In this document: positions 22,384-53,043 of the stretch, one piece after another
How the letters are laid out: each line of letters starts with the position of its first letter
Numbering within the stretch: the first letter of the stretch is position 1
NCBI RefSeq assembly: GCF_000621745.1
Contig: NZ_JHXK01000005.1
Span: 248,001 to 312,000, forward strand
DNA length: 64,000 nucleotides
Direction of reading: 5' to 3'
Origin: Clostridium beijerinckii HUN142
GTDB lineage: Bacteria; Bacillota; Clostridia; Clostridiales; Clostridiaceae
Notes under the pieces: model-generated
The model's database searches: none
What the model was told of the DNA's origin: nothing
Seen by the model: the letters and a program-made list of their open reading frames with translations, nothing else
Program-made: the position numbers and the translations under genes

Positions 22384-25300
22384 TTATTTTAAGTATACAA
22401 AGACTTCTAACTTACCACCGTTTCTTGGAATTAGGTTATCCTTCATTACTTCTCCATTTACAACTACCTTTGCCACAACTTCATTATCACTATTTTTTGA
22501 GCTATAAGGTATGGATTCTACATCACTTTGATAATTATTATTTTGCTCATTATTCTTAGTATTTACGTTTAATCCATTTTCATCATTTGCTCTAGAGACT
22601 TTTATAGTGTAATCTTCTTTCTCATTTGTAATCTTTATTTCAAATTCATTCCAAGATTTTGGTATACAAGGATTTATAGCATATCCCTTGTCTTGAACCT
22701 TTCTAAGTCCCAAGATATTTTCAACACCAACTCTGTACATCCATCCTGAAGCTCCTGTATACCAACTCCAGCCTCCTCTTCCTGCATGAGGCTCTTTTAT
22801 ATACACGTCTGCCGCCATTACGTAAGGTTCCACTTTATATGTCATACACTCTAACTCTGTTTTTGCATGATTTATAGGATTTATCATATTAAAGTAGCTT
22901 ACCGCTTTATCACCAAGCCCAAGTTTAGTTAAAGCAAGTATAACCCAAACCGCAGCATGAGTATATTGACCTCCATTCTCTCTTACACCTGGCACATATC
23001 CTTTTATGTAACCTGGTTCTAACTTGGAATTACTAAATGGTGGTGCAAGCAATAGGATCATTCCTTTATCTTTCTTTACAAGATTATTATCCACCGCTTC
23101 CATTGCTTCAATACTACGATCCTTCTGTCCTGCACCTGATATAATTGCCCAGCTTTGAGCCAATGAGTCAATTCTGCATTCTGGATTTTCTCTTGATCCA
23201 AGAGGTGTACCATCATCAAAGTATGCTCTTCTATACCAGCCGCCATCCCAAGCGTTTTTCTCTAGGTTATCTCGTATAAACTCTCTTCTTTCTTCAAAAT
23301 GTTCTTTTGTTTTCTTATCGTTTTGTTTACCTGCAATTTCAATAAAGCTTTCTAATATTGAATATAGGAACCAGCCAAGCCATACGCTTTCTCCTTTTCC
23401 TTCGTTTCCAACAGTACTCATTCCATCATTCCAATCTCCACTGCCCATTAAAGGAATATTATGAATACCAAAATTCAAACTCTTTTCTATAGCTTTTAAA
23501 CAATGTTCATATATAGTTCCTTCTTTTGATGATTGATTCACTATTGTATATCTTTCATCCTCACCTTCTCTTAAAGGTTCATCTTCTAAGTAAGGTGCAG
23601 TAGAATTTAAAATCTCGTAATCTCCTGTCGAATTAATATACTCAGCAGTTACATAAGGAAGCCATAATAAATCATCGCTAAATCTAGTTCTTATTCCCGA
23701 ATTAACAACAGGATGCCACCAATGCTGAACATCGCCTTCTACATACTGTCTTGAAGCACTTCTTAATATTTGCGCTTTTGTTATTTCAGGCTTTACAAAG
23801 CCAAGTGACATGGAATCTTGAAGCTGGTCCCTGAATCCATAAGCACCACCACTTTGGTAAAATGCGCTTCTGCTTAAATATCTGCAACTTAAAGTTTGAT
23901 ATAAAAGCCATCCATTTAAAAGATAATCTAAAGACTTATCTGGTGTCTTAACTTGTATATTTCCTAGGAAATTGCTCCAATATTGTTTTACTTTATCTAA
24001 TTCACTTTCTGCATTTCCAAAAATCTTGTATTTACTTATTAATTCATCTATTTTTTCTTTCTCATCTTGACCAAATAAGATTAACAGTTCCTTTTTTTCA
24101 CCTTTTCTTAGAACAATACTTGTTTGTGCAGCTAAACAAGGGTCATAAATTGCACCAAACTTATTGCTTAGCCTATTACTCTTTAGAGCTTCAGGGCTAA
24201 AAGTTTCTCCTCCAATACCTAAAAACTCCTTATTATCTCCAGTGAAACTCAATTCCTTTCCACCTATAATAGTTAAATAAGCATTTAATCTTCCAAAATA
24301 CTCACTATATGGATTATGAGCACCTATAAACCTATTCTTGAAAGTAAAATCTGCACCACTATTTTCAATACTATCTCCATTTACTACATCTACTGTTTCC
24401 TTATGTTCCGATTTATCTCCACCTATATATGTTGAGATATACCTTGAACTATCATACTCATAAACACCCAAAACAAGTTTTGCATAGTAGAATAATGAAA
24501 TACTTCTATCTTCATTACTTAAGTTCTCTAGCGTAACTCTCTGAATTTTTAACCTTTCATCTTTAGGAGCAAAAACTTCTAATTTCCCTTTTATATTATA
24601 TGCTGTATGCCTGTATTCAGAGTATCCAAAGCTATGTTTTATTAAGTAATCACCTGAATCTCTTACAGGTTTTGGTGTTATCGAAAAATAATCGCCTGAG
24701 CCATTATCTTTAATATATAATGCCTCTCCTATAGGATCTCTAATATAATCATTGCTCCAAGGTGTTATTTTATTTTCTCTAGAATTCCCACACCAAGTAT
24801 ACCCTGAGCCTACTTCTGATATATGAAATCCAAAGTCATCATTTGAAATAACGTTAATCCAAGGTGCTGGCGTATTTCTATAATTAGATAATTTTATTAT
24901 ATAACTATTATCCTTTTTACAAAATCCACCATAACCATTAAAGAAATCTAAACCACTTACATCAAAATCTTCATCAGCATCTTCTTCATATTTATGAGAA
25001 TCTTTTGATACATCCAAATCTAAATCAACTAAACTTGAAATTTCTGAATTGTAAACTAATTCTCTTTCTTTTTTACTTTGATTAGATTTCTTACCTATCT
25101 CTACATCATCATTATCATCTTGATCTTCTGGCTCATTAATATTCTTTATTAAATCATGAATATTAATTACTTCCTCATCATTATCATATACCTCGTAAGG
25201 TATATTTTCACCATCCGTATCTTTACTAATATTTTCATTCTTATATTTATCCTTAAACCTTGAATTATTTCTTAAAGCTATTCGAGAATCTAATCCCTCA

Positions 25301-28300
25301 TCATCTAAGTCCATGTATCTATTAAAATTCTTCTCATTATGTGCATATGAACTTAATGGATTCTTATTGTCTACATATATCCTAGAAATTCCCATTAGTA
25401 AGTTCTTAATTTCAACATCCATGGTTGCCTTATTATGAATAAATATTCCACCCGCTTTATTCAAGTAATTACCTACATTAGATGATCTTATTACCTCCAT
25501 TATATTTTTTTGAAGTGGTTCATCATAGGAAACTTCTTCATTATTATATATAATTAAATCTAACTTAACTCCTTTAATTCTTAAGTAATTATGGAATTTT
25601 ACCATAGTATATACTAGATTCATGTCTTCTTCATTTTCTATCGCTAGCATTATGATAGGTAAGTCTCCTGAAATTCCATATGACCATAAATCCTTTTGAT
25701 GCTTTGAAATATTTCTAATATATTCTTCTCTATTTTTTCTAGTATTAGTTAGAAAGAAAATTGAGCTCGCAGCACTCTGGAATATATTGGCTATAGCGCT
25801 TCTTATTCCTAAAGTCTTTAGTTCAAGCTGTGCACTTATGCTATAATTTTTGAATACTCTTTCTAGCTTACTATTATCATTGTTATGTCTGCATATTTCA
25901 AATATTTGTTCTTTTGATTCACATATTCCAGTTATATAATAGATTTCTTTCTTAGAATTAGGCTCTAATCTGATTCTCGTTCTTATACTCATTATAGGAT
26001 CTAAAACTGTTCCAACCGTATTATCTAAGGCTTTATCATTATCCATGGCTTTTGGATTCTTCAACTCTCTATTTCTTCCTATAAAATTTATCCTTGAAGT
26101 TTCATATGAGATACTTCCTTCTAGCTCACCATTAACAACTGCCTTATGAAAAATATATGGAACCTTTGCATTCTTAACTCTACCTCTTCTGCTTCCTATA
26201 AGAACATTTTCCTTCGCATCATACTCTGTTTGCACAAATAAATTAGAGAATGTTGGATGAACTACATCAGCACTAAAAGTAGCTAATGTTACTTCCATAT
26301 AGCTTGTTATTTCAATACTTCTGCTTTTATCTCCTTTGTTATTTAAAGTTAATTTTCTAACTTCAAAACCTTCTTCTGAAGATATTGAAACTTCCATTGA
26401 AGTTTCAATGTTACCATCTTTTCTACTAAATTTGGCTTTATCTAAATTAAACTCAACAGAATACTTATCTCCAAGATCTTTACACGGCTCAAAAGTTGAA
26501 CTCCAATAGTCATTTGAATTTAAATTCTTTATATAGAAAAACATTCCACTATCATCGCTTGTAGAGTTTCCTTTCCATCTATAAAGCATTGTATCATTCT
26601 TTTTTGAATATCCATTTCCGTTTACTGTTAACATAGATGAATATTCACCATTGCTTAATAGTAATACTTGCGGGCTATCCTGATTCACTTTTTCAAATAC
26701 TCTTGGGATTAAAACCTCTCCCTCAAAATATCTATTCTTAACAGAAAAATCCTCATTTCTTTCAAAGACAACATTTTGCGGAATTTTCTCTTTTAGTAAA
26801 AGTTCTGTAGATTTTATCTCAGGAATATCATGAAATCTATTTATTAAAATATCATTGCATAGAATATTATCTAAAGCCATAAGTGACATTCCTAAATGAT
26901 GCACCATATAAGTGGCCACTTTATTAATCTTCTGTGGATAACTTGAGTTCTCATAATTACTTTTATCGCCATTATTCCTGTGAATTCTACTAGTTTCATC
27001 ATTACTATCCACACTATTCACATTATCCACATGCTTATTGTTCATATAACTTGTATTTTTATCCTGTGTATTATCCACTCTTTTTTCGTAGTTATCCACA
27101 TAATCCTCATAGTTATCCACATTTTGTGTATAATTTTTTCCATTTGTTGAAATATTCTGCTCTAGAAAATCACCTTTAGAAAGTGTCATTATGTACTTAT
27201 CTTTCCTAGCTTTAGTATAATCTAAAGCTTCTATGAAACCATATCTTCCTAATGCACCCAACTTTTCAAGCTCTTTAAGATTTTTAATACCAGAATCTTT
27301 GTCAAAAGAAATAGCCATTAATGTTGAATATGGAGATATTACAAGATCATCTTCAAGTCCTCTTTTAAGTCCAAGTCCAGGTACTCCAAATGCCTTGTAT
27401 TGATAATTTTCTCCTGCATCAAATTCATAAAATGCAGATTCTGATATTCCCCAAGGAGCTTTCTTTTGCTTTGCAAAGTTTTTTTGTGCCTTTATGACAG
27501 ACCTATAAGTTTGACTAAGTAAAGTTTTAGGATAATTCCTCATTATTAGCGACGGCATAAAATACTCAAACATAGTTCCACTCCAAGACACTAGGGAATG
27601 GGTATGGAATGCATTAGTCATCGAACGACCTAGCTTAAACCAATGGGAAGAAGGTACGTCGTTTTTAGCTATAGCAACAAAAGATGCTATCCTTGACTCA
27701 GATGCAAGCAAATCATAATAAGAGTTTCCAAGAGAATTTTCCTCTACATTATATCCTATAGAGAATAGTCCTCTAGTTTTATCATAAAGAAAAGTAAAAT
27801 CCATTTCTTCTGTTATCTTATCAATATCTTGTATTATATTATCTATCTTATCTATGTAATTTTTGAAATTATTTATCTTTTCTCTAAATTCACCTCTGAA
27901 GTTATCTCCATTTTTTCTTCTATAGTCCTCACATCTTTGGACTAACTCCATAATGTCTGGTACTCCTTCGAAAAATTCTTTACTATATAATTTTTCTATA
28001 CCCTCAAAAATGAAATTATAATAGCTAATCTTTTTTCTAACTTCACCTATAAGCTTATCAATCCAATACCTTGCTTCTTCGCTCTCAAGTTTTAATTCAC
28101 CTATAATATTTTCTTCTTCACCACTTAAATTATCTATATTATTGTTTTCCGATTTAAGTTGCTGTTTTAGACTAATTATTTGCTCTGTTTCCTTCAAATC
28201 TTGAAGTTTGAATAAAATTTCATTTAATACTTTTATATATTCTCCAATATTAATATGTGAAGAAAATTTAAGCTTTAGATTAGGTGCTTCATCTTCGATT

Positions 28301-31300
28301 ATTTTATAAATATCATTTAGTGATATGACCTCTTTTACTCTTATCACTTTATTATGCTTAAGCTCTTCCATAGATTTCTTTAGTACCCATAGGTTACCTA
28401 AAAGATTTCCACTATCAACTGTTGATACATATCTAGGCCATAAGGGTTCTTTTGTTTTAGTATCATACCAATTTAGATAATGACCATTTACCTTTTGAAG
28501 AGTTTCCATACTATTTAATATAAGCTCTATCCTGTCAACAAACTCTGCCATGGTTATATATCCCAAATCATATGCAGCAATGCTTGAAGTAATTCCCATG
28601 CCTATATTAGTTGGGGATGTTCTATGAGCAACTCCCTTGAATGGTTTTTCCTGATAGTTATCTGGAGCCAGGTAGTTATTCTCTTCATTAACAAAATCCT
28701 CATAATAAGCATATATCCTTCTAGAAATTTTTCTTAAGTATGTTTTTTCTTCATTCTTTAAAGCATTCTTCTTGTGTTCTGGACGTTTAATACTTATGCT
28801 ATAAGCCATGTAAGGACTGATTATCCATAATGCAGCAACCACTACACTATAAGTAACTACTCCTAATGAACTATAAAATGATAAATATAATACAAGTAGA
28901 CCCATTATCGGAGAAATCCACATTCTCTTCAAATAATTAATAAAATCATTTCTTGAATTTTTTTCTACAAGTTCTGCTGACTGCCATTCTAAAAGATTTT
29001 TCTTAGAAATCATTACTCTATATAGTGTTACTATTATAGCATCAAGCATCAAAAAAGCTTGGTAAGGAATAAAACTTACTATTAGCACTATCTGCTCTAG
29101 CGTTTTAAATGCTCCCATTAATTTGTTTTTAGGGGTTACAACAAAATCTGTTACTACAAATACTAATGGAGTTATTAAAGCTAAAAATGCAAGCAGTGCA
29201 ACTTGACTTCTTCCAAATAAAACAGTGAGAGATAAAATAAGAGCAAGAAGTAAATTAGGTGCTAATAAACTTCTTCTTAGATTATCAAATATCTTCCACT
29301 TATATAATAAATTTATTTTATTAGAAAACAGCCATCCTATTAGCTGCCAGTCACCTCTGACCCATCTATGCAATCTTTTGCAGCTAGATTCATAAAATGC
29401 TGGATATCCATCAATAAATTCCACATCACTTAATAATCCACATCTTGCAATACCACCTTCAAGCAAATCATGACTTAATACTGTATCATCTTTTATAGAG
29501 TTACTTAACACTTTATAGAATTCATCTATGCATATTATGCCTTTACCAGTAAAAGACCCTTCTCCAAATAAATCTTGGTAAGTATCAGAATAAGCAACAG
29601 AATATCCATCAACCCCTTCTTCTCCTCCAAATACTTTTGAAAAATAAGTTTGATTCTTAGCTTCTAGGCTAATGCTCACCTTAGGCTGCATTATTCCATA
29701 TCCTCTTGCAACTCTATTGTCTTTTATATGAGGAATATTAAGAATATGACTCATAGCCCCTACAAGTTTAAAAGCACTTTCTCTAGGCATGAAAGTATCT
29801 TCATCTAATGTAATTAAATACTTAACTTGTTTTAGTTCTTCAATATCTGAACTAAAGACATTATAAGTATGATTCTTACTTCCTCTAATAAGAGCCATAA
29901 ACTCCATTAGCTTTCCACGTTTTCTTTCTCGGCCCATAAATACATTTTGTTTCTTATTATAAACTCTCTTTCTACTAAAGAAAAAGAATCTATTTTCACT
30001 AATACCTTCATCATTTTTAAAATCATTTGAATATTTCTCATTTAGATCTCTAGCATATTGAACTCCAGATTTAATTATTTCTACATCTTCTTGAGCAGTC
30101 TCATGCTCAGAATCATGAAAATCGCTCAGTAAAGCAAAATAAATATTCTTATCCTTATTTCCACAATATGCTACTTCTAACTTTTTCATAAGTTCTTGAA
30201 CTTTCTCTTTAGAGTTCACTATAGCTGGAATTACAACTACAGTTTTATTTTCTTTAGGGATTCCCGAGCTAAAATTTAATTTTGGAATTAATCTAATATC
30301 AACAACTTTCCCTACAGTATAATTCGTAAGTCCAATTATTATTTCATTTACTGGAATTAATATTATAAGGAATGAAATCACATATTCTACTAGGGTATAT
30401 CTAACCCCTAGTAAGCCACTTATTAATAAAATGAGAAAACTTATTAAAAGTGTTCCAAAAATATTGCATGCTACATATGTATTTGCAGATATAGTTGTTT
30501 TTATATTATTTCCGTATTTTTTTAATTCGTTTATTCCCTCATCAATTAGATAATATCCAATATGGGATTTATAATTTTCTTCTTTATTAGTTTTACTATT
30601 TCTTGCAAGCTCTAAAATATTGCTAGCTAAGATAATTTCATCTGCATTTGATATTCTAGCCATCTTTTCAAGCTTATGTCTATAATAATCCTTAGATTCA
30701 AAATCCATACTATTATAAATATTCGCAGGATCATTTTTTAGGATTTTTTCAACAAAAGAAGTCTCTTCAAAAAATCTTCTCCAGCTTATTCCTTCAATTT
30801 TTCTAATAAATGTTATGTATTCTCCAATGTTTCTTTCTAAAACTTCTTCTCTTAAATCACTTCTAATATTATTTTTATCTAAATCTGAATTCACTTTCCA
30901 TTTAGATTCTACAATATCATTTATTCTTGGATCTTCTACAGAATTATCTCTTAATACACTAAAAAATTCTCTTAGAAATAAAGGAGCGATATTTTTTCCT
31001 ACATTGATATTTCCTATTTTCTCTTCAAATTTATTATTGTTAATTGCATCTATTATCTTTTCAGCTGTATCTCTTCCTTTCATGATTTCTTTTTGGATAT
31101 CAACTAGTTCATTAGTATATTTAGATAAATTTATTATGATAGCTATTTTAAGCATTAATGGGAATGCCCATAATTCTCCTGTAGTAAAAATCTTTTCTTT
31201 ATTATTAAAATTCCCGTTTTCAATGTCTCCTTGAAGTGCATTTATATATGATATGAGCTTATCGCAATCAATCTCATTCCCGTTATTTATATAATCTTTT

Positions 31301-31620
31301 GCCACTACAAAAATACGTGGAATAAATTCCATATTCTCATTATCTTTATTTGCATGATTATCTTTATTTCTATTGTAATTAACATTACCTATAGAAGATA
31401 GTCCCTTAAAATAATCTATAGGCATCTCAATCTTTATCGCTTTATACTCTTTTTCAATTAAATATATATTATCAAGAAGCCATTCAGATGCCCCAAGTAC
31501 TTTATATCCGTTCTTAGATAATTTGCTAAAGTACCTAAAATTTTCATGGATGCAAGAAAATCCATCAGCTAACTCTTTTAAAACACTCTTTCTTACTCCA
31601 TAAGAATTATTTCTCCTCAA
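22384..31620 (-). CDS. Cyclic beta-1,2-glucan synthase-type protein (GT84-GH94)
   Basis: 3078 aa. Order of parts: an N-terminal alpha-helical region (1-375), TM helices (380-443), a GT84-type glycosyltransferase with DEDT near 602 and RWVRGDWQ near 752, more TM helices (about 787-945), a glucoamylase-like domain (about 1000-1480, SPTNIGMG, EYFMPSLIMRNYP), and a C-terminal GH94 phosphorylase-type region (about 1590-3040) with MGSGDWNDGMS near 2725 holding the predicted catalytic Asp. Known NdvB/Cgs enzymes polymerise glucose from UDP-glucose and use the GH94 part to trim chain length before cyclisation. The product here may be cyclic or linear. Two unusual hydrophilic insertions occur: Asn/Asp-rich at about 1487-1560 (VDN repeats) and acidic at about 2090-2225. 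No export gene (NdvA-like) is adjacent. GH94 motifs are intact and no frameshift is seen. Confidence 0.92.
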   Translation of the reverse strand: MRRNNSYGVRKSVLKELADGFSCIHENFRYFSKLSKNGYKVLGASEWLLDNIYLIEKEYKAIKIEMPIDYFKGLSSIGNVNYNRNKDNHANKDNENMEFIPRIFVVAKDYINNGNEIDCDKLISYINALQGDIENGNFNNKEKIFTTGELWAFPLMLKIAIIINLSKYTNELVDIQKEIMKGRDTAEKIIDAINNNKFEEKIGNINVGKNIAPLFLREFFSVLRDNSVEDPRINDIVESKWKVNSDLDKNNIRSDLREEVLERNIGEYITFIRKIEGISWRRFFEETSFVEKILKNDPANIYNSMDFESKDYYRHKLEKMARISNADEIILASNILELARNSKTNKEENYKSHIGYYLIDEGINELKKYGNNIKTTISANTYVACNIFGTLLISFLILLISGLLGVRYTLVEYVISFLIILIPVNEIIIGLTNYTVGKVVDIRLIPKLNFSSGIPKENKTVVVIPAIVNSKEKVQELMKKLEVAYCGNKDKNIYFALLSDFHDSEHETAQEDVEIIKSGVQYARDLNEKYSNDFKNDEGISENRFFFFSRKRVYNKKQNVFMGRERKRGKLMEFMALIRGSKNHTYNVFSSDIEELKQVKYLITLDEDTFMPRESAFKLVGAMSHILNIPHIKDNRVARGYGIMQPKVSISLEAKNQTYFSKVFGGEEGVDGYSVAYSDTYQDLFGEGSFTGKGIICIDEFYKVLSNSIKDDTVLSHDLLEGGIARCGLLSDVEFIDGYPAFYESSCKRLHRWVRGDWQLIGWLFSNKINLLYKWKIFDNLRRSLLAPNLLLALILSLTVLFGRSQVALLAFLALITPLVFVVTDFVVTPKNKLMGAFKTLEQIVLIVSFIPYQAFLMLDAIIVTLYRVMISKKNLLEWQSAELVEKNSRNDFINYLKRMWISPIMGLLVLYLSFYSSLGVVTYSVVVAALWIISPYMAYSISIKRPEHKKNALKNEEKTYLRKISRRIYAYYEDFVNEENNYLAPDNYQEKPFKGVAHRTSPTNIGMGITSSIAAYDLGYITMAEFVDRIELILNSMETLQKVNGHYLNWYDTKTKEPLWPRYVSTVDSGNLLGNLWVLKKSMEELKHNKVIRVKEVISLNDIYKIIEDEAPNLKLKFSSHINIGEYIKVLNEILFKLQDLKETEQIISLKQQLKSENNNIDNLSGEEENIIGELKLESEEARYWIDKLIGEVRKKISYYNFIFEGIEKLYSKEFFEGVPDIMELVQRCEDYRRKNGDNFRGEFREKINNFKNYIDKIDNIIQDIDKITEEMDFTFLYDKTRGLFSIGYNVEENSLGNSYYDLLASESRIASFVAIAKNDVPSSHWFKLGRSMTNAFHTHSLVSWSGTMFEYFMPSLIMRNYPKTLLSQTYRSVIKAQKNFAKQKKAPWGISESAFYEFDAGENYQYKAFGVPGLGLKRGLEDDLVISPYSTLMAISFDKDSGIKNLKELEKLGALGRYGFIEALDYTKARKDKYIMTLSKGDFLEQNISTNGKNYTQNVDNYEDYVDNYEKRVDNTQDKNTSYMNNKHVDNVNSVDSNDETSRIHRNNGDKSNYENSSYPQKINKVATYMVHHLGMSLMALDNILCNDILINRFHDIPEIKSTELLLKEKIPQNVVFERNEDFSVKNRYFEGEVLIPRVFEKVNQDSPQVLLLSNGEYSSMLTVNGNGYSKKNDTMLYRWKGNSTSDDSGMFFYIKNLNSNDYWSSTFEPCKDLGDKYSVEFNLDKAKFSRKDGNIETSMEVSISSEEGFEVRKLTLNNKGDKSRSIEITSYMEVTLATFSADVVHPTFSNLFVQTEYDAKENVLIGSRRGRVKNAKVPYIFHKAVVNGELEGSISYETSRINFIGRNRELKNPKAMDNDKALDNTVGTVLDPIMSIRTRIRLEPNSKKEIYYITGICESKEQIFEICRHNNDNSKLERVFKNYSISAQLELKTLGIRSAIANIFQSAASSIFFLTNTRKNREEYIRNISKHQKDLWSYGISGDLPIIMLAIENEEDMNLVYTMVKFHNYLRIKGVKLDLIIYNNEEVSYDEPLQKNIMEVIRSSNVGNYLNKAGGIFIHNKATMDVEIKNLLMGISRIYVDNKNPLSSYAHNEKNFNRYMDLDDEGLDSRIALRNNSRFKDKYKNENISKDTDGENIPYEVYDNDEEVINIHDLIKNINEPEDQDDNDDVEIGKKSNQSKKERELVYNSEISSLVDLDLDVSKDSHKYEEDADEDFDVSGLDFFNGYGGFCKKDNSYIIKLSNYRNTPAPWINVISNDDFGFHISEVGSGYTWCGNSRENKITPWSNDYIRDPIGEALYIKDNGSGDYFSITPKPVRDSGDYLIKHSFGYSEYRHTAYNIKGKLEVFAPKDERLKIQRVTLENLSNEDRSISLFYYAKLVLGVYEYDSSRYISTYIGGDKSEHKETVDVVNGDSIENSGADFTFKNRFIGAHNPYSEYFGRLNAYLTIIGGKELSFTGDNKEFLGIGGETFSPEALKSNRLSNKFGAIYDPCLAAQTSIVLRKGEKKELLILFGQDEKEKIDELISKYKIFGNAESELDKVKQYWSNFLGNIQVKTPDKSLDYLLNGWLLYQTLSCRYLSRSAFYQSGGAYGFRDQLQDSMSLGFVKPEITKAQILRSASRQYVEGDVQHWWHPVVNSGIRTRFSDDLLWLPYVTAEYINSTGDYEILNSTAPYLEDEPLREGEDERYTIVNQSSKEGTIYEHCLKAIEKSLNFGIHNIPLMGSGDWNDGMSTVGNEGKGESVWLGWFLYSILESFIEIAGKQNDKKTKEHFEERREFIRDNLEKNAWDGGWYRRAYFDDGTPLGSRENPECRIDSLAQSWAIISGAGQKDRSIEAMEAVDNNLVKKDKGMILLLAPPFSNSKLEPGYIKGYVPGVRENGGQYTHAAVWVILALTKLGLGDKAVSYFNMINPINHAKTELECMTYKVEPYVMAADVYIKEPHAGRGGWSWYTGASGWMYRVGVENILGLRKVQDKGYAINPCIPKSWNEFEIKITNEKEDYTIKVSRANDENGLNVNTKNNEQNNNYQSDVESIPYSSKNSDNEVVAKVVVNGEVMKDNLIPRNGGKLEVFVYLK
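26933..27121. promoter_or_regulatory. DnaA-box cluster inside the glucan synthase gene
   Basis: Perfect TTATCCACA at 27023-27031, 27092-27100 and 27113-27121, and perfect TGTGGATAA at 26933-26941. One-mismatch copies lie at 27005-27013 (CTATCCACA) and 27071-27079 (TTATCCACT). Six boxes in 189 bases are far above chance. On the coding strand they translate as repeated VDN in a low-complexity linker. Confidence 0.6.
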
Positions 31621-33477: not shown

Positions 33478-34494
33478 CTACATAGTAAATGCCATGACTA
33501 CTTTTTCATCTTTTCCTAGCGGCACATCTCCTGAACAAAGTTCAACAATTTCTTCATCATCGTCATTTAAATTTATCTCGTTAATCCCGTTTTTATTATT
33601 GGATTTTTTTCTACTCTTACTATTCTTCTTTTGCAAGGATATTGGAATGCTTGACTGTAAATTATCTTCATAAGCATGCTTTTTAATTTCCAAGCCGTTA
33701 TTAGTATTATCGTTGTTATAATTGGCATCACTAGGAATCATATCTATATTATTAGTATTGTTTATAGATTCTATGTTTTCATTGTCATTTTTATTATTGA
33801 TAATATCTATGCTAATATTTGTAGTTTCACTATTTCTGATTTTATCAACTCTTATGGCATTACTACTGTTTATGCTGCTTTTATTATGCGTATTACTTTT
33901 AACTCCAAACTCAGAATCTATGCTAGCAGAATTTTCCCTACATTGATTACAACTATTAATATTATTATCATTACTGTTCTTATTTACTTCTTCTTTAGAA
34001 ATCACAGTATTTTCAACTTCAGTAGTATTTTTCTTAATCATTTCACCAATACTTTTATAATTATTATTCTTTAAATCATCACCTACTAGATTTTCTCCAA
34101 GTTTCTCTCCCTCTACATCAGAATTCTTTTCTTCTACTATATTCTCTTTAATTTGATTATTCTTATTTATTTTAATATTTTGGTGTTTAGCAAAGTTTTT
34201 TACTTTATAGATTTTGTCTTCTGTAAACTCAATCATTTCTAAATCCATTAAAACTTTCATAGCTAATTCTACTTGTATAATATCTCTATTAAATTCTATA
34301 GCAAGGGTTTCCATTGTGTATGGAATATTTCTAGATAAAAATAATTCTCCTTCTAAATTCACCTTCCCAGCTAAAGCAATAAGTCTAATCCAAATGTATT
34401 GAATAATATCCCTTTCATCCATTGTATCTATTATTTTAGATTTAGTATCATCATACATATCAACTCTTAATTTAACAAATTTTCTTTCCTTCAT
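33478..34494 (-). CDS. Orphan phage-replisome-organizer-N-like protein
   Basis: 338 aa from ATG at 34494, which has GGGAG 10 bases upstream; the longer GTG start at 34503 abuts that site. Residues 1-110 resemble the Phage_rep_org_N winged-helix domain (KFVKLRVDMYDDTKSKIID, IWIRLIALAGKVN, IPYTMETLAIEF, MDLEMIEFTEDKIYKVKNF). Family members usually continue into a DnaD/DnaB-like domain, but here residues 120-300 are Asn/Ser-rich low complexity, followed by a basic KKNSKSRKKSNNKNG patch and an acidic end. No phage genes are nearby, so it may be a domesticated replication or DNA-binding protein. Function is unproven. Confidence 0.75.
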   Translation of the reverse strand: MKERKFVKLRVDMYDDTKSKIIDTMDERDIIQYIWIRLIALAGKVNLEGELFLSRNIPYTMETLAIEFNRDIIQVELAMKVLMDLEMIEFTEDKIYKVKNFAKHQNIKINKNNQIKENIVEEKNSDVEGEKLGENLVGDDLKNNNYKSIGEMIKKNTTEVENTVISKEEVNKNSNDNNINSCNQCRENSASIDSEFGVKSNTHNKSSINSSNAIRVDKIRNSETTNISIDIINNKNDNENIESINNTNNIDMIPSDANYNNDNTNNGLEIKKHAYEDNLQSSIPISLQKKNSKSRKKSNNKNGINEINLNDDDEEIVELCSGDVPLGKDEKVVMAFTM

Positions 34495-34873
34495 TTTTAA
34501 CACTCTCCCATTTAAATTAATCTTCTATATGGAATATATGTTTTAAAATGAATAGTTACATAATTTCTCTAAAATTTTTTATATTTTTCTAAAAATCATT
34601 TTATTCCAAAAGTAAAATAGATCTAAATTTTATTCTAGATCTAATACATCAAGTATGTTGACACGACAAAATTGAATGTGATTATGGAGCCGGAGATTTT
34701 TTTACTCATCTGCCCTCTCGAACACATATGAGTAAAATATAACAGACGAATATATATTTTTTTATTATTTCTATTCTTTTCACCCTACTTGAACGTCCTA
34801 TTATATAAATTATTCCCACAAGAAGTACCTCTTCCATAAATTTAACTTCATTATAATTTTCCAAACAATAAAA
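34495..34873. other. Gene-free spacer with two hairpins
   Basis: Holds TAGATCTAAA...TTCTAGATCTA (about 34618-34644) and TTTTACTCAT (34700-34709) with ATGAGTAAAA (34728-34737) around an 18-base loop. A 64-codon minus-strand frame (34706-34900) overlaps the dapA terminator and lacks a ribosome site, so it is not called. Confidence 0.5.
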
Positions 34874-51193: not shown

Positions 51194-52044
51194 GATTTTT
51201 ATCCCCTCCCCATTAACTATTGGTTAGATTTTTATAATAAATTTCTCTAGTTATAAATTTTTATTTTATTATATTTATAATTATATTTTCCTATAAACTC
51301 ACACTCTATTAAAAGTTCCTTAAATTAGAACTATCTTTCTCATATATACTCACAATTATAATATTTTCAAAACAAATCACTTATTTTAGGTATAATATGT
51401 TAAATTCCATTAATTACTATTTATATTATACTACTTTCTCCTATTACTTAAAGTTAAATTTTATTTATCCACAATATCCACAGTTTTTATCCACAAATGT
51501 GTGAATATTGTTTATAAATATATATCATAAAATTTCTTAACAAGAAATCGCTAAGAAAGACTTTCTACAAATTTCTCTTATTATACTCAATTATCTCCAT
51601 ATTTATTGGAATCAAGTCTGTCATTACTTCTAAAATATTCATAAATAACTAATTGAATATCATATTTGACAATTAAGTTATCCACAGATTTTATACTATT
51701 ATCAACAATATACACAAGCGTTATGTTTACTAGCCTAAGGCTTAGTTTTATTTTATAATATTTAAGTTTGTCCACAAGTTTATTCACAAAATTTCTTGTT
51801 TAAGCGTATAATTACAAAATTCGATTCTAGAATTAAACATATTTATGTGGATAACAATAACAACAATAATATCAAAATACTATAAAATCCTTAAGAGTTT
51901 CTTAATACTTTGTTAATTTCTAAGTTATAACACCTTAATAAAACATTAAAGTATAAAGTAATATCTTGTGGTCTTTTCATTCCTATCATATACTTTTAAT
52001 CAGGAAATATATTCTTAAGTTACAGTAAAAGGAGATTTATTATA
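51194..52044. other. Gene-free 851-base divergent region with DnaA boxes
   Basis: Upstream of both the minus-strand TIM-barrel gene and the plus-strand DUF1700 gene. It is extremely AT-rich. The DnaA-box cluster at 51465-51854 is the only definable structure, plus an A/C-rich stretch AACAATAACAACAATAATAT (51853-51872) of the type found in unwinding regions. A 66-codon minus frame at 51587-51787 only mirrors the boxes and has no ribosome site. Confidence 0.6.
51465..51854. promoter_or_regulatory. Intergenic DnaA-box cluster
   Basis: Perfect TTATCCACA at 51465-51473, 51487-51495 and 51678-51686, and TGTGGATAA at 51846-51854. One-mismatch copies at 51474-51482 (ATATCCACA), 51768-51776 (TTGTCCACA) and 51780-51788 (TTATTCACA). 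Seven sites within 390 bases. The usual oriC neighbours (dnaA, dnaN, rpmH) are absent, so this is more likely a titration or regulatory cluster than the chromosomal origin. Confidence 0.65.
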
Positions 52045-53043
52045 ATGACCCAAAATGAATTTTTTAACATTTTAATGGATGGTTTAAAAGACTTTCCTGA
52101 AATAAAGCTGCAAGATATTATTTCTTATTATGAAAACTACTTTAAAATTAGATTAACTGTTGGAAGAACAGAAGACGATATATCAAAGGAGTTAGATAAT
52201 CCTAATTTAATAGTTAATAAACTTAGAAGTGAAAATTCACATATTACCGTTAACTTAGACAATTTAACTAATAGTTCTAATACTAAAACTAGCGATAAGA
52301 TTTCTAACATAGATACTACTGATATAGATATTAATAATAGTCATAGCAATGTATATGACAGTTTTAAAACTAACAGAAAGTTTGGTAATATCTATTCAGA
52401 AAACAAGAATGATTTAAAAACTGATTCCAACTTTAATGATTTTAAGTCTAATAATTCTTATGCTTCAAATGATTGTTTTTATGACCTTCATAATGAAAAT
52501 ATATCACTTGATATTCAAAAAAGCAATTATAAATGTGCTGAATTAAAAGAATCAAAATATAATATCAATAATGAGGATAAATTTAATCGCAGTGATGATA
52601 TTTCCTTCAACTCAGAATTTAATTTTAGTACATGTCAAATAAAGAATATTTTTAATACTCATAAATCTAAAAATAAGATTCCTAACTTTAATATAAATAT
52701 TATCTTAAAGATTTGTATTATAATCTTATCTTTAATAATATTGTTTCCAGTTATAACTGGTATTGTTGGTTGCTTTATAGGGCTTTTAGGAATAGCGATA
52801 AGTCTTTTTATTGCTAGTATTGGAGTGCTAATTGGTGGAACTTTTACAAACCTTTTTACTATTCCTAATATTCCAGCATTTGTCTCCAATTTTCCGTACC
52901 CAGTAATAGTATTATTTTCTTTGGGTTCACTCTCATTATCACTGCTTTTAATAATTATATTTTTCTACCTTTGTAAATTTCTTATATTAATTCTGGCCAA
53001 AATATATAACTTTTTAAAGTTTAAAGGTGGTGAATCATTATGA
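52045..53043 (+). CDS. DUF1700/HAAS family membrane protein
   Basis: 332 aa. Residues 1-75 carry the DUF1700 (HAAS) N-terminal motif (MTQNEFFNILMDGLKDFPE, IISYYENYF, ISKELDNPNLIVNKL). Residues 80-215 are Asn/Ser/Asp-rich low complexity and differ from the short linkers usual in the family. Two or three TM helices fill 220-325 (KICIIILSLIILFPVITGIV, PYPVIVLFSLGSLSLSLLLI). Such proteins are usually partnered with a PadR regulator and a DUF4097 protein and are thought to act in envelope stress. Here the PadR gene is missing upstream. AAAGGAG precedes the ATG. The stop overlaps the next start (ATGA). Confidence 0.85.
   Translation: MTQNEFFNILMDGLKDFPEIKLQDIISYYENYFKIRLTVGRTEDDISKELDNPNLIVNKLRSENSHITVNLDNLTNSSNTKTSDKISNIDTTDIDINNSHSNVYDSFKTNRKFGNIYSENKNDLKTDSNFNDFKSNNSYASNDCFYDLHNENISLDIQKSNYKCAELKESKYNINNEDKFNRSDDISFNSEFNFSTCQIKNIFNTHKSKNKIPNFNINIILKICIIILSLIILFPVITGIVGCFIGLLGIAISLFIASIGVLIGGTFTNLFTIPNIPAFVSNFPYPVIVLFSLGSLSLSLLLIIIFFYLCKFLILILAKIYNFLKFKGGESL

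Follow-up and report, generated by a model that had tools for sequence, protein, structure and literature searches.

A cluster of predicted DnaA boxes inside the coding sequence of a cyclic beta-glucan synthase-like gene of Clostridium, and box pairs in unrelated genes of the genus

Introduction

Why would a very large cyclic beta-glucan synthase-like gene (cgs) carry a cluster of DnaA boxes in the middle of its coding sequence, and is it the DNA or the encoded peptide that has been kept by selection? The gene lies in the window, by which we mean the whole stretch of 64,000 nucleotides analysed here (29% GC), which is part of a 6.1 Mb genome in 53 contigs; the nearest named matches of its proteins are from Clostridium species. 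That DnaA-box clusters exist outside oriC is already known: Okumura et al. reportedly described, in 2012, oriC-proximal DnaA-box clusters (DBCs) in Bacillus subtilis. An earlier note on the window had suggested that in cgs selection may act on the DNA and not on the linker peptide, the site serving to titrate DnaA or to link envelope glucan synthesis to replication, and had named simple expansion of a VDN repeat as the alternative.

A cluster of boxes within the cgs gene

The features of the locus are given below (strand relative to the window; B1 to B3 name three of the boxes).

22384-31620, minus strand: host gene, cyclic beta-glucan synthase-like, 3078 aa, with Pfam matches to Glycoamylase, GH94 supersandwich and GH94 catalytic domains
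26929-27156, minus strand: in-frame insert (linker) with boxes, codons 1489-1564
26933-26941, minus strand: perfect DnaA box in the opposite orientation, encoding YPQ
27005-27013, plus strand: one-mismatch DnaA box, 87 bp from B2
27023-27031, plus strand: perfect DnaA box, from the motif scan of the window
27071-27079, plus strand: one-mismatch DnaA box B3, 21 bp from B2
27092-27100, plus strand: perfect DnaA box B2, 21 bp from B1
27113-27121, plus strand: perfect DnaA box B1, encoding VDN on the minus strand
27125-27133, minus strand: seventh box, one mismatch, opposite orientation, 12 bp from B1
51465-51854, no strand assigned: second cluster of DnaA boxes, lying between genes, upstream of the gene at 52045; four of its boxes are perfect and four have one mismatch

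The host protein combines Glycoamylase and GH94 domains and matches the solved cyclic beta-1,2-glucan synthases 8rf9 and 8rf0 at E = 0 (an NCBIfam search of the protein gave no match), and by this architecture and this match it is a cyclic beta-glucan synthase, its activity being predicted. The insert sits after the Glycoamylase match (residues 1301-1479) and ahead of the GH94 supersandwich match (from 1650); the earlier note, which had placed a linker at about residues 1487-1560 between the glucoamylase-like and GH94 regions, was right to within a few residues. In a structure model of residues 1250-1700 (36 sequences), residues 1471-1563 have a pLDDT below 50, with the insert near 30. Only this very low value is taken from the model because its mean is 55: it is compatible with the insert being a disordered loop, and nothing further is drawn from it.

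A rescan of the window returned the four perfect and two one-mismatch boxes of 26933-27121 exactly where they had been reported, and with the seventh box the count within about 200 bp, outside oriC, rises to four perfect boxes and three with one mismatch. At the place of the seventh, three relatives (L014, L020, L021) have a perfect box. The window as a whole holds 40 matches with at most one mismatch, against 23.3 (SD 4.3, maximum 34) in 100 shuffles. In the genome (6,106,710 bp) perfect TTATCCACA occurs at 126 sites, and the same pattern read backwards, a control, at 80; when the genome-wide density check proposed in the earlier note was applied to perfect boxes, none of 5000 uniform placements of 126 sites put four within 189 bp. 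The cluster at 26933-27121 is not a product of chance. Among 100 of the 126 sites that were listed, four fall within 400 bp at two spots only, and both are in the window: this cluster and the intergenic one at 51465-51854. No conserved DnaA-trio was seen by eye.

Boxes kept beyond the needs of the protein

A search for cgs in 59 genomes of the genus gave matches in 45, and loci were prepared and examined for 30 of these: in 15 the two anchors are 151-229 aa apart, a long linker that holds two to six perfect boxes, and 15 are boxless. A second collection of 78 loci, which overlaps with the first, yielded 61 that could be parsed (ten with boxes, 51 without) and 17 that could not, their matches being short or, for one, partial. 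Among the orthologues parsed the long linker is confined to box-bearing genes, and none carries the VDN insert without boxes, so that the orthologue check suggested in the earlier note came out in favour of selection on DNA.

Codon choice within the insert points the same way. The survey, three genomes found through the pair pattern described below and C. chromiireducens DSM 23318 (L041) together provided 19 insert-bearing genes from 19 genomes. Each linker was redrawn 1000 times with the protein held fixed and synonymous codons drawn according to how the gene uses them outside the linker. In these 19 genes, which were defined by the insert plus at least two perfect boxes, 73 perfect boxes are observed where 8.7 are expected (SD 2.7, maximum 20 in 1000 redraws); with up to one mismatch allowed, 143 are observed where 77.0 are expected (SD 4.9, maximum 96). 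Taken singly, 17 of the 19 genes have a number of perfect boxes that at most five of 1000 redraws reach, the weaker results being those of G046 (17 redraws) and G032 (30); at up to one mismatch G028, G037 and G050 do not stand out on their own (at least as many boxes arise in 101, 111 and 189 redraws). The valine of VD is written GTG in 91 of 101 cases, against 4-21% for other valines of the same genes; in the window gene the figures are six of six for the linker and 21 of 169 for the rest. Synonymous redrawing cannot account for the boxes, and the proposal of selection on the DNA instead of the linker peptide is borne out to that extent.

Spacing is held as well. The perfect B1-B2 pair, with a step of exactly 21 bp, is present in 16 of the 19 insert-bearing genes (it is absent in G046, G023 and G021), and in all 16 a B3 with one or two mismatches follows 21 bp beyond B2. 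The outer base of B3 is the consensus base in none of them, so B3 may be a weaker site. In 14 of the 16 a further perfect box comes after B2, either 78 bp on (five genes) or 87 bp on (nine); the two exceptions are G051 and the present genome (G000), which has its one-mismatch box of 27005-27013 at 87 bp. VDN or VDK is the commonest reading of the boxes (60 of 73), and the other 13, on the opposite strand, encode YPQ (ten aligned rows displayed). Across the aligned genes the codons between boxes diverge while the spacing holds. As judged from these alignments and redraws, the predicted boxes are kept in sequence and in spacing beyond what the protein requires.

Descent of the insert

A tree was built, with the linker excluded, from 29 cgs proteins: those of the 28 loci that could be parsed out of 34, and the window gene. 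Its 11 box-bearing rows need two changes, as few as in none of 500 shuffles, and a single change suffices in 2% of 200 bootstrap trees. Their distribution is read as one gain and one loss, the loss being placed in a box-free subclade of three rows (C. uliginosum, C. weizhouense and Clostridium sp. CMCC3677); the branches that nest it within the box-bearing rows have moderate support (91/91 and 90/89). The linker measures 93-105 aa in this subclade against 146-223 aa in box-bearing rows of the tree: insert and boxes were gained and lost together. That these three did without the site counts against reading it as a titration device.

Box pairs elsewhere in Clostridium

Two perfect boxes 21 bp apart occur at 57 places in 45 of 68 genomes of the genus, and the reversed control pattern in none. 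In 194 genomes of the family the 21-bp pattern is found in 63 (38 of 56 within the genus, 25 of 138 outside it), again with none for the control. Among the first 150 same-direction pairs listed, from 39 of the 68 genomes, the commonest steps are 38 bp (32 pairs), 21 bp (32) and 13 bp (21).

The surroundings of all 57 places were inspected, and 38 lie inside open reading frames. Fifteen are in cgs, eight in a gene for a cspB-like subtilase (with four more just upstream of such a gene), six in addA and five in a short-chain dehydrogenase gene. Nine are intergenic, beside sfsA, a PadR gene and a homologue of the window gene at 52045, which is the neighbourhood of the second cluster; three are at oriC, one of them judged from box density alone; four are in other reading frames (L133, L135, L141, L211); one overlaps or precedes the start of a cutC-like gene (L206), and two are unplaced (L147, L156). 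The names addA and sfsA rest on NCBIfam matches over the cut-off and the dehydrogenase on Pfam; for cspB the CspB prodomain is over the Pfam cut-off and CspBA below that of NCBIfam; homologues of the gene at 52045 were recognised through the Pfam HAAS domain. In the window, near cgs, the gene at 33478-34503 (minus strand) encodes a protein with a phage replisome organiser N-terminal domain, and its C. neonatale relative (L141) has a 21-bp box pair inside the reading frame.

The three genes other than cgs each have an arrangement of their own. In all eight cspB genes the boxes are spaced at 21 and 63 bp, and they coincide with VDK or VDN at three fixed positions in the prodomain. Nine cspB orthologues examined (complete or own genomes) are boxless and have other residues at those positions; a single box is present in that of G017, and where the pair is upstream of cspB (four species) the reading frame itself is boxless. 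Five of six addA genes have an inverted box, then 44 bp, then the 21-bp pair. Here the boxes read VDN or VDK, LST and LWI, the last being one box of L164 in another frame; the addA match of G051 (L187) has one in-frame TAA, a sequencing error or a broken gene. The dehydrogenase gene of the present genome has two boxes 54 bp apart (L205). In redraws, observed and expected perfect boxes number 24 and 2.0 for cspB, 26 and 1.7 for addA, and 14 and 1.9 for the dehydrogenase, figures that are conditioned because the genes were found through their boxes (the 21-bp pair for cspB, addA and five of six dehydrogenase genes, the boxes 54 bp apart for the sixth). Since cspB-like, addA and dehydrogenase genes are unrelated, such pairs mean that clusters of predicted DnaA boxes in coding DNA recur in the genus. 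A mobile repeat as their source is disfavoured, as the cgs insert appears to fit vertical descent and the in-frame sites of cspB and addA lie in alignable protein.

In the intergenic cluster at 51465-51854 the perfect boxes show steps of 22 and 191 bp, and there is also a near-21-bp pair, which G008 and G059 have in perfect form; these two genomes, and G011, G017 and G019, also have clusters in this neighbourhood. It is likely a partner site of the cgs cluster. Two further groups of perfect boxes were seen in the present genome: upstream of a malic enzyme gene (L202, contig C29, 36-36.2 kb) four are separated by steps of 26, 26 and 52 bp, with three boxes spaced alike 26 kb from dnaA in G008, and two lie 33 bp apart in a 1210-aa reading frame with DUF445 matches (L204, contig C9).

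Position relative to dnaA and oriC

In the six complete insert-bearing genomes in which both genes could be placed (G008, G028, G030, G037, G043, G051), cgs lies 324-590 kb from dnaA (6.7-9.1% of the chromosome), always on the same side; judged from these relatives, the cluster is oriC-proximal, as B. subtilis DBCs are. Position alone proves nothing, because the box-free cgs of G017 is at a similar distance (391 kb, 11.5%) and synteny can give such a distance; in G011 cgs is 604 kb (21%) away. For addA the distance is 22-48 kb in eight complete genomes where both genes could be located, and we infer a place near dnaA for the six pair-bearing addA genes because their own genomes are drafts.

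Perfect boxes outside oriC also tend towards dnaA. A quarter would be expected no farther than 12.5% of the chromosome from dnaA in either direction, and 40 of 95 are found there in G008, 25 of 44 in G011 and 44 of 87 in G043. With neighbouring sites merged the counts are 27 of 81 (P = 0.058), 14 of 32 (P = 0.016) and 31 of 74 (P = 0.001), an excess that is weak in G008 and G011. In the complete genome of G008 the two arms differ in the orientation of TTATCCACA, the minus strand prevailing on the right arm and the plus strand on the left, for which a general strand bias may be the explanation.

The cluster is not next to dnaA: in this genome dnaA is on contig C29, with three boxes on each side (L201), and the cluster on C3. 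A hidden origin at the cgs cluster is ruled out by these boxes bracketing dnaA on another contig.

Discussion

The boxes of the insert are predicted sites that DnaA very probably binds. On balance we favour a reading in which the cgs insert, close to oriC, binds DnaA and by titrating it would delay re-initiation. A step of 21 bp is two helical turns and would set the boxes on one face of the DNA, where DnaA could bind cooperatively in an ordered array, both at the cgs insert and at the intergenic neighbour cluster; the site, doubled early after initiation, would withdraw free DnaA and hold it down. The host gene might be merely a carrier, the disordered loop of a very large enzyme tolerating whatever peptide the boxes encode. 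Titration fits the position near dnaA and, by analogy, the published Bacillus clusters. In B. subtilis, deletion of six DnaA-box clusters outside oriC leads to early initiation, according to the available text of two papers (PMC5295017, PMC13220808), and the second, a review, states, against titration, that tenfold DnaA causes no over-initiation in the wild type.

A broader proposition seems to us evenly balanced between right and wrong: that Clostridium writes origin-proximal DnaA sinks into coding DNA, as arrays of perfect boxes at two-turn steps that may sit in any gene near oriC (cgs, cspB, addA, the dehydrogenase), move between genes over evolution and dictate the local amino acids, the cgs insert then having no protein purpose.

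Other explanations would keep DnaA and change what it does. A bound site might act as a switch like datA or DARS, altering the nucleotide state of DnaA instead of simply holding it; the ordered boxes, the one conserved imperfect box and a distance from dnaA that resembles a control locus all speak for this, and yet, as far as the sources available to us describe them, the E. coli loci use IHF and Fis. To our knowledge both proteins are absent from Clostridium, and we consider such a switch unlikely. Alternatively, DnaA bound within the gene could regulate cgs itself, for example as a transcription roadblock that couples glucan synthesis to replication: the cluster is in mid-gene, and DnaA is described as a transcription factor in B. 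subtilis in the part of the paper at hand (PMC4447404). Most cgs orthologues examined in the genus are boxless, however, and other species have their box pairs in unrelated genes, which makes self-regulation quite unlikely and leaves the link to envelope glucan synthesis put forward in the earlier note without support.

It is also conceivable that the boxes belong to something other than DnaA. With a motif of just nine bases, the true ligand could be another protein that knows the same sequence, but this we hold very unlikely: the same 9-mer is clustered on both sides of dnaA in this genome, the sites lie towards dnaA, and TTATCCACA is the box published for low-GC Gram-positive bacteria (PMC5749712, as far as its accessible text goes). 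Least of all do we expect that a VDN-rich repeat was expanded in the linker for the sake of its peptide, with the boxes a by-product. The peptide is of low complexity and VDN or VDK prevails in it, but codon redrawing already contradicts this account, and boxes are read as YPQ in cgs and in three different ways in addA. Simple repeat expansion fails too, because of the opposite-strand YPQ boxes and because codons between boxes diverge while their spacing holds.

The likeness is closest to the DBCs of B. subtilis, which are box clusters outside oriC, near the origin and with the same consensus, as far as the sources at hand describe them; the cgs cluster differs in its regular 21-bp step and in lying not between genes but within a single large gene whose open frame runs to 3078 codons. 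According to the available text of one study (PMC4447404), the eight strongest DnaA regions of B. subtilis flank genes, upstream or downstream, with one that spans yyzF, and are the only ones readily seen in vivo, while the next-strongest in-vitro sites, within reading frames (codV, rplB), are weak; sites within reading frames therefore need not be functional in general. In E. coli boxes are concentrated near oriC, and the part of the work available gives evidence for titration (Olivi et al. 2025; PMC12371093). What the two cases share is that boxes are over-represented close to the origin and interpreted as a means of titration; the E. coli excess is a broad density gradient, whereas the cgs cluster is compact, ordered, conserved and in one gene. 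Like datA, DARS1 and DARS2, the cgs cluster would be a DnaA-box locus away from oriC that tunes DnaA, but these E. coli loci are described as non-coding and as working with IHF and Fis (PMC4585315, in its accessible portion, for the former), and the cgs cluster is coding.

A literature search, largely outside subscription journals, found no account of DnaA-box clusters inside Clostridium genes. New with respect to the literature searched are conserved clusters in coding DNA, with fixed residues, that recur in unrelated genes. DnaA-control loci have so far been described, in the texts available, as non-coding (datA, DARS) or gene-flanking (the strong B. subtilis regions). If clusters in coding DNA are held against codon choice and shape the protein in unrelated genes, then searches confined to intergenic DNA would have left part of the replication-control map uncharted. 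Sister species with and without the insert would make a clean Gram-positive test system for titration, and the cgs site can be erased by synonymous changes with the protein untouched.

With the bipartite oriC of clostridia, the subject of two papers in their available parts (PMC7561715, PMC5749712), the cgs cluster shares box consensus and box clustering; the difference is one of place, since oriC brackets dnaA and in complete relatives cgs lies hundreds of kb away. Very dense arrays at oriC, or likely so, were seen in three genomes of the genus: about 6 kb holds 14 perfect boxes in L166, 21 in L167 and 14 in L175.
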